Part shown: positions 49,579-51,611 of the stretch, one piece after another | How positions within the stretch are numbered: position 1 is the first letter of the stretch | Layout: the number at the start of each line of letters is the position of its first letter | Assembly: GCA_019634835.1 (NCBI GenBank) | Contig: JAHCAO010000014.1 | Location: 1 to 56,055, forward strand | Source of the DNA: Gammaproteobacteria bacterium | GTDB lineage: Bacteria > Pseudomonadota > Gammaproteobacteria > DSM-16500 | Direction of reading: 5' to 3' | Length of the DNA: 56,055 bases | Translations under genes and position numbers: made by a program | Notes under the pieces: model-generated | The model's input: the letters and a program-made list of their open reading frames with translations, nothing else | Database searches by the model: none | What the model was told of the DNA's origin: nothing

Positions 49579-49587
49579 GAGGAAGTG

Positions 49588-50418
49588 ATGAGTTATATGC
49601 TAACTTCTTGCGAAAAACAGATTGCGCATGAATGGGAAAAATATAAAGGCTTTACTGTCAGGCCTTTACCCAGCACAATAGAATATTATACCCATATCAT
49701 TCACTCTTGTTCTCATCATAAAAATTATCTTATTTACGGCAGCACGCCTGAAATTCGCACGATATTTCAAACATTCAATCTCCCCGTGCACTTGGTAGAT
49801 AGATCAGCAGAAATGGTGCGTGCAATGGGCTTATTAACAAAAGAAAAAATTCCCTTGTCTGTCAATGAGAAATTTCTGCATGATGATTGGCTTAATCTTT
49901 CTTCCATAGGAAAAACGTTTGACCTACTTATAGGTGATGATGCAATCAACATGGTAAATTGGAATCAATTTGATTTATTTTTATCAAACGCATCCAATCT
50001 TCTTAACGAAAATGGATTATTTATCTGTCATTTGTTAATCAAACCAGATGATGATTTAATCCATCAAACCTTCGAGCAAGTCATCAGTGAATTTAATACA
50101 GGAAAAATTAATACTTCATATGATTTAGCAAGTCGATTAAATTTTATTTGTTTTGATGAAAAAAACTATAGTATGGGCTGGCAACAAACGATAGAAAAAA
50201 TTGGCAACGTTAATTTAAGCCAAACAATTGATGATTTTAATTTTATTGATACATTCGGTTTATGTAATAGCCAATTCTATTGCCCTCCGCAAAATGAATT
50301 TGAAGCTTTGGTAACAAAATATTTTATGATTGAAGAAATATATTATCCAAGTGAGCATGCCTATTGTATTTTCGAACCTATTTACCTCTTAAAAAAGATA
50401 AGGCGTGATATTACATAA
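49588..50418 (+). CDS. Divergent class I SAM-dependent methyltransferase
   Basis: 276 residues. AGGAGG lies 5 bases before the ATG at 49588. The Rossmann motif I is weak (NYLIYGSTPEIRTIF), but acidic motif II VHLVDRSAEMVRAM, motif III-like DDWLNL and motif IV FDLLIGDDAINMVNW followed by LLNENGLFICHLLI are typical of the fold. It overlaps the operon of the diiron-oxidase-like gene. The substrate is unknown. A DUF559 element (50431-51024) begins 13 bp after its stop and separates it from a hydrolase gene. Confidence 0.7.
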   Translation: MSYMLTSCEKQIAHEWEKYKGFTVRPLPSTIEYYTHIIHSCSHHKNYLIYGSTPEIRTIFQTFNLPVHLVDRSAEMVRAMGLLTKEKIPLSVNEKFLHDDWLNLSSIGKTFDLLIGDDAINMVNWNQFDLFLSNASNLLNENGLFICHLLIKPDDDLIHQTFEQVISEFNTGKINTSYDLASRLNFICFDEKNYSMGWQQTIEKIGNVNLSQTIDDFNFIDTFGLCNSQFYCPPQNEFEALVTKYFMIEEIYYPSEHAYCIFEPIYLLKKIRRDIT

Positions 50419-50430
50419 CTTCATATATGG

Positions 50431-51024
50431 ATAAGGGCGGCAATGGGCGAACGCTAATTTAATGGCACTAACTTAAGAAAGCTTTTAGAAAAGTTACTGC
50501 GAAATTCAGTTAGGAAGCCTTCCCAACAGGGGAAGGTGCCCGAAGGGCGGAAGGGGGAATTAAAATGCAATCATTGCTTCAACAACGAGCGCGGCAACTT
50601 CGTAAAAAAATGCCAGAAGCTGAAAAAAAATTGTGGCATAGATTACGGCGGCGACAGTTAAGAGGTCTTCGCTTTCGAAGACAAGTAGCCTTTGATAAAT
50701 ATATTGTCGACTTTGCTTGCTTTGAGCCAAAAATCATTATTGAGGTTGATGGATCACAACACGCAATACAAGTTGCTTATGATGATCAACGGACAAAATT
50801 CCTGCGGTCATTCGGATATACCGTGTTACGATTTTGGAATAATGAAATATTAGGTGACATAGAAAATGTATTGCAAACCATCTGGAATGTTTGCACTCCC
50901 CCTTCCGCCCTTCGGGCACCTTCCCCTGTTGGGAAGGCTTCCTAACTGAATTTCGCAGTAACTTTTCTAAAAGCTTTCTTAAGTTAGTGCCATTAAATTA
51001 GCGTTCGCCCATTGCCGCTCTTAT
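50431..51024. mobile_element. DUF559-nuclease element bounded by ~127-bp inverted repeats
   Basis: Left arm 50431-50557, right arm 50897-51024; nearly perfect complementarity over ~127 bp. Outer end ATAAGGGCGGCAATGGGCGA, inner end GAAGGTGCCCGAAGGGCGG then AAGGGGG. Weaker similarity continues outward for about 25 bp (TTCATATATGG and CTCATATCT). Only one gene lies between the arms. No transposase and no obvious direct target duplication. The arms contain the gene's ribosome site and its final codons. Confidence 0.85.
50565..50945 (+). CDS. DUF559 (Vsr/PD-(D/E)XK-like) endonuclease
   Basis: 126 residues. The domain begins ARQLRKKMPEAEKKLWHRLR, then FRRQVAFDKYIVDFACFEPK and the catalytic segment IIIEVDGSQHAIQ, giving D49, E60-x-D62 and H66 as the likely active site, and ends FGYTVLRFWNNEIL. 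DUF559 is related to very-short-patch repair endonuclease; a nick or cleavage activity on DNA is expected but specificity is not known. The ribosome site (AAGGGGGAATTAAAATG) comes from the left inverted repeat, and residues about 111-126 plus the stop are encoded by the right repeat. So gene and repeats behave as one unit. Confidence 0.85.
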   Translation: MQSLLQQRARQLRKKMPEAEKKLWHRLRRRQLRGLRFRRQVAFDKYIVDFACFEPKIIIEVDGSQHAIQVAYDDQRTKFLRSFGYTVLRFWNNEILGDIENVLQTIWNVCTPPSALRAPSPVGKAS

Positions 51025-51041
51025 AGATATGAGGTTACATA

Positions 51042-51611
51042 ATGAATCATACAAACATTATCATCATCCATGGTGCCTATGGTTACCCGAATGAAAATTG
51101 GTTTGGTTGGTTAAACAATCAATTGCAGCTACTGAGAATACCCTGCCATGTTCCGTCACTCCCTTCACCTGAAGGACAAAATCTCTTATCTTGGCTTGAT
51201 GCATTCAATCAATCTGCTGGTCATTTGGTGAATGAAAACACTATCTTAATTGGACATAGTTTAGGAGCAGCATTTATTTTTCGATGGCTAGAGCAACACC
51301 CATGTCAGTTAAAATCCGTGATTACAGTAGGTGCATTTATTGGAAAAATAGGAGTAGTAAAATTTGATCTAATTAATGAGAGTTTTTTTCAATTTGATTT
51401 TGATTGGAATACCATTAAATTACGTAGTCAGCATTTTGTTTGTTACTATGGAACAAATGATAATTATGTTTCCAGGCAGCAATTCGAAAATATTTCGACT
51501 CGCCTAAATGCAAGAAAAATTATTGTGTCAAAAGGCGGGCATTTCAACATAGCCTCTGGATATGCACAATTTCCACACCTATTGTTCCAACTAAAACAGA
51601 TGACAAGATAA
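51042..51611 (+). CDS. Serine hydrolase of the RBBP9/YdeN family
   Basis: Small alpha/beta-hydrolase, 189 residues. Beginning TNIIIIHGAYGYPNENWFGW, nucleophile Ser in the elbow LIGHSLGAAF, acidic residue in YYGTNDNYVS and His in KGGHFNIASGY complete the triad. Family members are often general esterases. It starts 17 bp after the DUF559 element, on the same strand as the methyltransferase; the original operon may have been diiron-oxidase, methyltransferase, hydrolase before the element inserted. Confidence 0.87.
   Translation: MNHTNIIIIHGAYGYPNENWFGWLNNQLQLLRIPCHVPSLPSPEGQNLLSWLDAFNQSAGHLVNENTILIGHSLGAAFIFRWLEQHPCQLKSVITVGAFIGKIGVVKFDLINESFFQFDFDWNTIKLRSQHFVCYYGTNDNYVSRQQFENISTRLNARKIIVSKGGHFNIASGYAQFPHLLFQLKQMTR

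Follow-up and report, generated by a model that had tools for sequence, protein, structure and literature searches.

A DUF559 nuclease gene between triplex-type inverted ends: a probable nuclease-only mobile element in a gammaproteobacterial genome

A nuclease gene enclosed in long inverted arms

The DNA analysed here (the window) is a stretch of 56,055 nucleotides from a gammaproteobacterium of the DSM-16500 lineage (assembly GCA_019634835.1, contig JAHCAO010000014.1, positions 1 to 56,055), which carries a DUF559 nuclease gene enclosed by long inverted repeats. The nuclease gene (50565..50945, + strand) is intact and encodes a protein of 126 amino acids that matches only DUF559 and MTES_1575 in Pfam. 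The match to the DUF559 profile (PF04480, PD-(D/E)XK superfamily) reached an E value of 7.6e-44, with 148.5 bits against a cut-off of 20.6, in agreement with the family assignment given in a preliminary description of this locus. The gene is bounded by a left arm at 50425..50565 (+ strand) and a right arm at 50890..51030 (− strand), each of 141 nt and with 324 nt in between, which are complementary at 135 of 141 positions (96%). The score of this pair, 261, lies beyond chance, the 99th percentile of 698 control placements being 28. The preliminary description had correctly recognised these near-identical arms and their unusual length, which is however 141 nt and not around 127 bp; it had also rightly placed the ribosome-binding site in the left arm and the end of the gene in the right one, where the last 18 or so codons (about 16 had been claimed) and the stop fall. 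The nuclease's ATG is located where the left arm ends on its inner side, 7 nt past GGAAGGGGG, a run within this arm that is both Shine-Dalgarno-like and the third purine strand of the structure described below.

The whole unit probably has its outer limits at 50419..51034 (616 bp, not assigned to a strand), where its inverted termini CTTCATAT and CCTCATAT are found. It is flanked by two copies of TTACATAA, at 50411..50418 and 51035..51042 (both + strand), a candidate target duplication; when 20-mer pairs were drawn at random 20,000 times, 83 of the draws shared at least 8 nt. Besides the nuclease gene, the unit contains four listed open reading frames (ORFs) of 52-60 amino acids, all overlapping it and with zero family matches in Pfam. 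As these are the only other listed ORFs, no transposase is seen in the unit, as had been proposed, and no Pfam match to a DDE or other known transposase was found among its ORFs. A search of Rfam gave a single sub-threshold match inside the nuclease gene, which was taken as chance.

The fold of the nuclease is Vsr/I-Bth0305I-like, and the conserved acidic and histidine residues are retained. Among 48 aligned sequences, residues D49, E60, D62, H66, D73, R76 and R89 are invariant and E20 is kept in at least 90%. For these alignments 11 of 65 loci were skipped (in-frame stop, over-long or short), five more were omitted from alignment A1 by choice, and locus L113 was left out of alignment A2 by rule. 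When the window's nuclease was compared with that of genome G014, from the same genus, the ratio of non-synonymous to synonymous rates (dN/dS) was 0.07 over 112 codons, with a dS of 1.6; judged from these codon changes, the nuclease is under purifying selection. The same ratio could not be used in genome G066, described below, where two of the copies (C78 and C192) differ by too few changes and the frame failed for the third (C308). NCBIfam returned one match, PRK09767, below its cut-off.

Triplex-type ends and their association with DUF559

Inside each arm, next to the gene, lies a composite hairpin. The left end (50518..50557, + strand) consists of a pyrimidine run Y, CCTTCCC (50518-50524), a loop AACAG, its complementary purine run R1, GGGAAGG (50530-50536), a small hairpin GCCCGAAGGGC (50538-50548), and a second purine run R2, GGAAGGGGG (50549-50557), which is the mirror of R1. 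The right end (50898..50937, − strand) has the same parts inverted, with Y at 50931-50937, R1 at 50919-50925 and R2 at 50898-50906. Folding of the DNA gave z values of -2.40 for 50500-50564 and -2.46 for 50895-50955 with a program that has no triplex term.

Other DUF559 genes, not only in Gammaproteobacteria but also in records labelled Omnitrophota, Deltaproteobacteria, Helicobacter, Rickettsia, Hyphomicrobiaceae and Pseudobutyrivibrio, are flanked by the same build: on each side, in inverted orientation, a run of pyrimidines is followed by a loop and by the complementary R1, and after a spacer comes the second purine run, R2, beside the gene. The window conforms to it, its R1 being (G)GGGAAGG and its mirrored R2 GGAAGGGG. 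The spacer between R1 and R2 is made of two or three bases or of a second small hairpin (for example GCCCGAAGGGC or CAGCGCAGCTG), and two structural subtypes of end can be distinguished by this spacer (seen at L084, L085, L094, L124, L131, L136 and L023).

To quantify these observations, flanking inverted repeats were scored at 63 DUF559 loci (64 given), chosen as high-scoring family matches and not drawn at random, and they exceeded the 99th percentile of 698 same-locus controls at 51 of them; loci L101-L107 and L112 (weak or partial DUF559) and L008 (same sequence as L086) were left out. A perfect third strand mirroring R1, with G on G and A or T on A, was present in 56 of the 76 usable arms (out of 128). 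For 30 distinct asymmetric R1 runs the mirror fitted better in 21 cases and the direct read in 2, with 7 ties (p 3.3e-5), and the agreement of R1 with its own tail was 0.926, a value that dropped to 0.796 when tails were exchanged at random among loci (p 2e-4). Examples are GGAGGAAAGGGG with GGGGAAAGGAGG (L096) and GGAGGAGAGGG with GGGAGAGGAGG (L087). A mirrored R2 is what a purine-motif triplex needs.

By their sequence build, the inner arm ends at DUF559 loci are the intrastrand triplex motif (TM) of Holder et al. 2015, known from E. coli MG1655 and formerly called PIT (PMC4666352). The likeness extends to the Y-loop-R1-loop-R2 purine motif, the inverted pairs and the many copies in many genomes, as far as these are set out in the accessible part of that paper, and the difference is that the motif is here tied to DUF559. 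According to the same part of the paper, triplex folding of the E. coli motif was shown in vitro, and the 2015 survey found no mobility gene for it.

The co-occurrence of gene and motif was measured in 369 genomes of the class, in which PF04480 at E values of at most 1e-20 defined the presence of DUF559 and the pattern CCCTCTCCC the strict motif; among mobility-enzyme families, the association was computed for DUF559 alone. There were 73 genomes with DUF559 and 98 with the strict motif; the reversed pattern, which served as control, was present in just one. The motif occurred in 49 of the 73 genomes with DUF559 and in 49 of the 296 without it (odds ratio 10.3, p 1.5e-16), and at least 10 copies of it were found in 26/73 and 12/296, respectively. 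The association persisted within families (20 observed against 11.5 expected over 22 informative families, z 3.77) and when one genome per family was taken (23/35 with DUF559 versus 20/147 without). The window's own genome counts as DUF559-positive and motif-negative because its purine run is GGGGAAGG.

Dispersed copies and the insertion site

Copies of whole units were sought within genomes in a survey of 20 loci from six genomes with at least two DUF559 genes. In G066, copies C78 and C192 show 98.3% identity over 534 bp and C308 shows 91%; the identity among the three stops at the arm ends, and their flanks are unrelated. Flanking direct repeats of 9-10 bp, one base being ambiguous, are present at all three copies (AATCTGCACC at C78, GTTACAAACC at C192, and GTTACAAACC/GTTAAAAACC, with one mismatch, at C308). 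Two of them, C192 and C308, lie within the palindrome GTCAAGGTTACAAACCTTGAC, for which this genome has 37 matches with at most three mismatches; since palindromes match both strands, these correspond to 29 distinct unoccupied places. The palindromic repeat family GGTCAAGGTTACAAACCTTGACCCGC of G066 (for example L179-L183), with 29 places within three mismatches of its core, serves as the landing site of two copies. Related DUF559 copies within one genome were also found in G034 (94-97% identity), G382 (84%) and G392 (81%), and no related pairs were found within G198 or G158.

In the window's genome (G000) one further copy was found, a partial one at C1:172329-172639 (L025, 1530-1840). It is inside-out, with the gene start, a hairpin and an arm followed by an arm, a hairpin and the gene end, and its nuclease-gene remnants are located outside both hairpins, an arrangement that a tandem or circular intermediate could give. 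Genome G014 carries a full unit with 80% identity, identical to that of L008. As it matches the query only over positions 82-526, conservation is confined to the inner part and does not extend to the outer arm. At nine further G014 loci the conserved ends occur without an intact nuclease, and one of these (C42) retains gene remnants; seven of the nine have inverted flanks of 38-88 nt beyond the core. The difference of the outer 85 nt or so between the window and G014 had suggested a locus-specific inverted duplication of the flank, an idea that was rejected because C42 of G014 shares the outer arm of the first G014 copy and the C1 copy shares that of the window. From these comparisons, the outer arm is judged to be a fast-changing part of the unit. 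A 22-nt piece of it recurs in G019, G032 and G033, with a weak match in the window's genome (L052); when it was considered as the end of an insertion sequence, no transposase was recognised by eye among the ORFs of L038, L044 and L052, where no profile search was run.

A second DUF559 gene of G014 has a different hairpin (CCCCTCTCCCGGAGCGC...), whose exact copies number 70 in G014, 5 in G003 and 0 in the other 54 genomes searched. All five copies of G003 adjoin its own DUF559 gene, which carries that hairpin; the pattern was derived from these two DUF559 loci. Fifty of the 70 hairpins in G014 form 25 inverted dimers, 72-77 bp apart. In the 20 dimers that were read, the repeat stops at R2 and the flanks differ, save for a second palindrome common to some of them. 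Four of these 20 dimers, at palindrome centres, exceed the 95th percentile of cross pairs, and the mean is high (p 5e-4), which we take as a weak hint of insertion at palindrome centres in G014, most of the cases sharing one palindrome family. Dimers centred in a second palindrome are found at L199, L206, L213 and L218; at L199, L206 and L218 this palindrome is of one kind (...GCGCAAAAAGCG), giving nested repeats.

At the locus itself, the unit is preceded by a methyltransferase-like gene (49585..50418, + strand; Methyltransf_25, E 6e-4, below the cut-off) and followed by a serine hydrolase gene (51042..51611, + strand; PF06821, E 6.2e-16), both outside the unit. The TAA stop of the first falls inside the left TTACATAA and the ATG of the second starts at the last base of the right one, so that fusing the flanks at one copy of TTACATAA gives ...TACATAATGAATC..., where upstream stop and hydrolase start overlap as TAATG, a feature relevant to the earlier proposal that the unit interrupts a likely operon. 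The hydrolase was found in 10 of the 56 genomes searched, the window's own included and one match being weak (G026). In all eight relatives with a clear hydrolase the unit is absent from this site, and a search of those loci with the nuclease gave no match. Directly before the hydrolase these eight have an ATP-grasp gene (Pfam was run on two), and in six of them the methyltransferase-like gene was matched farther upstream; the ATP-grasp protein of G005 had no match in the window's genome. The searches with the ATP-grasp protein and the nuclease thus reveal a site without the unit in relatives and the loss from view, in the window's genome, of a gene that relatives have there: when 49585-51611 of the window is compared with L054-L061, the DUF559 unit lies where the relatives carry the ATP-grasp gene, after the methyltransferase-like gene and before the hydrolase. 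A parallel is seen in E. coli, where ycjD lies at the position at which other lineages have the eef operon.

The mobility suggested in the preliminary description is supported by these data, as the unit is not restricted to one locus: there are the partial C1 copy and the G014 copies with and without the nuclease, sites lacking the unit in eight of eight relatives and unoccupied target copies in G066, and target repeats at shared borders in the latter genome. The refuting condition set in that description, a unit confined to this locus with no empty sites, is thus contradicted by the comparisons; the widespread intrastrand-triplex motif at the inner arm ends could not be seen from the sequence it was based on.

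Relatives of DUF559 were also seen in 32 plasmid records, and those on cyanobacterial plasmids (L140-L142) are near genes annotated as DUF1156, PglX or PIN-domain, which may point to a further role for DUF559 proteins. Three phage records match a query made from an E. coli triplex motif and were not used as evidence. The ycjD gene of E. coli was considered as proof of mobility and rejected, because it occupies a single site, flanked by an eroded motif on one side and by none on the other.

Interpretation, alternatives and meaning

Most likely, the unit represents a well-preserved copy of an element that has triplex-type ends and the nuclease as its only enzyme. We consider it probable that the window holds one copy of a mobile element with triplex-motif ends whose nuclease moves its own unit and nuclease-less relatives, and it is likely that DUF559 moves these units as well as the widespread short repeats of triplex type, which are similar to the ends of the units. 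From the observed architecture, dispersal, borders and association we infer the following route, with the nuclease itself doing the moving. In the cell, the ends would fold once their DNA is extruded or single-stranded, and the Vsr-like active site would nick or cut them; the excised piece, or its copy, might then enter the apex of an existing palindrome, where a staggered break would give the duplication of 8-10 bp, and host replication or repair would finish the transfer.

Several known systems offer points of comparison. RAYT enzymes are HUH transposases. The gene of the unit matches only DUF559 and MTES_1575, no HUH transposase gene is found, and GTTAGGAAG instead of GTAG stands beside the window's hairpin; since both of these features are missing, the unit is not a member of the REPIN-RAYT systems, though by analogy it would work like one. 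Common to both are palindromes dispersed singly and as inverted dimers, as seen in G014, and one gene bounded by them (PMC3733652, in its accessible part), while the enzyme is here a Vsr-like PD-(D/E)XK nuclease and the end has a third purine strand. With insertion sequences and miniature inverted-repeat transposable elements, the unit shares terminal inverted repeats, internally deleted copies (in G014) and, apparently, target duplication (in G066, with a candidate in the window), and it differs from them in that no DDE or other known transposase is seen in it. With Vsr-like nucleases (3hrl, I-Bth0305I, Vsr and E. coli YcjD, itself a DUF559 protein) it shares the fold and the conserved residues; none of these was linked to triplex-ended mobile units in the portions of the literature examined. 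No paper connecting DUF559 with triplex repeats, or treating DUF559 together with inverted repeats, was found in searches of an open-access library, which does not prove that no such link is in print.

A number of observations weigh against a nuclease that moves triplex-ended units. The TTACATAA repeat of the window was picked out by eye and only afterwards tested, no target duplication was noted when the G014 copies of the window's type were read by eye, and an automatic test for duplications, run on 44 loci bounded by arms, yielded none of at least 8 nt and, at 6 of the 44, repeats of at least 6 nt, against 6.8% expected; this test is weak either way because its borders overshoot, missing even the window's own repeat. 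Twelve of the 63 scored DUF559 loci did not surpass the inverted-repeat threshold. The strict motif is missing from 24 of the 73 genomes with DUF559 and present in 49 of the 296 without it; of the 12 genomes of the latter group with at least 10 motifs, seven have a DUF559-positive family member in the sample and five have none. Genomes G002 and G003 (64% and 67% complete) carry ends of the window's type, yet their DUF559 genes have other ends. Whereas R2 faces inward in the nuclease units and in nuclease-less copies of the window's type, it faces outward in the second-type dimers of G014 and in the C1 copy; there is therefore no single transposing unit, and any mechanism has to account for both orientations. 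Holder et al. did not find a stable triplex in vivo, according to the accessible part of their paper (PMC4666352). Finally, as far as the available parts of two further papers go, repeated DUF559 segments of Legionella pneumophila include a transposase (PMC12308824), and the Caulobacter protein VsrA, which contains a DUF559 domain, has been connected with cytosine methylation (PMC12907096).

Some of these points are what would be expected if the triplex-type ends were moved by RAYT, by the transposase of an insertion sequence or by replication slippage, with DUF559 as trapped or kept cargo. The 49 motif-bearing genomes without DUF559, the dimers in both orientations and the L. pneumophila case, where three repeated segments that carry both DUF559 and a transposase act as hotspots of recombination (PMC12308824, accessible part), speak for such a passenger role; these segments fit mobility of DUF559 yet leave room for it. 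We nevertheless find it unlikely, as one gene family is flanked by inward motifs in several phyla, the association persists within families, no gene other than that of the nuclease is seen in the window's unit, and one hairpin subtype, in a pattern taken from those very loci, is confined to the two genomes whose DUF559 carries it. Spread by homing, in which the nuclease would cut unoccupied alleles and the unit would enter the same site by recombination, with the hairpins as terminators or protection, seems to us decidedly improbable: the presence at non-homologous places of one genome with short target duplications, and the dispersed nuclease-less dimers, are unlike allelic homing, and the mirrored third strands would be left without a role. 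We attach very little credence to a house-keeping function in mismatch or hairpin repair or in defence, with inverted repeats merely gathering at the gene. The link of Caulobacter VsrA to cytosine methylation (PMC12907096, accessible part) and the single site of E. coli ycjD, between fabI and sapF, in 3,333 of 5,426 genomes are in its favour, and it is at odds with the lack of any match of the nuclease to a PADLOC defence model and with whole units that recur together with their arms and end at the arm ends.

Returning to the nuclease as the agent of movement, we lean, with some reserve, towards a wider reading, in which DUF559 nucleases would serve as transposases for a so far unrecognised class of mobile elements that spans phyla and whose ends fold into intrastrand triplexes. 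The PIT/BoxC repeats scattered over bacterial genomes, E. coli's included, would descend from these elements as non-autonomous forms, and YcjD would be E. coli's own enzyme of this kind, either resident or domesticated; BoxC we take to be the same repeat as the triplex motif. E. coli K-12 has both ycjD and the repeats, and this reading can therefore be tested there. If true, it would join two unknowns, the function of DUF559 and the spreader of intrastrand-triplex repeats, it would add a class of elements independent of DDE, HUH, serine, tyrosine and Cas1 enzymes, and DNA triplexes would gain a possible function in biology, as the ends of transposons.
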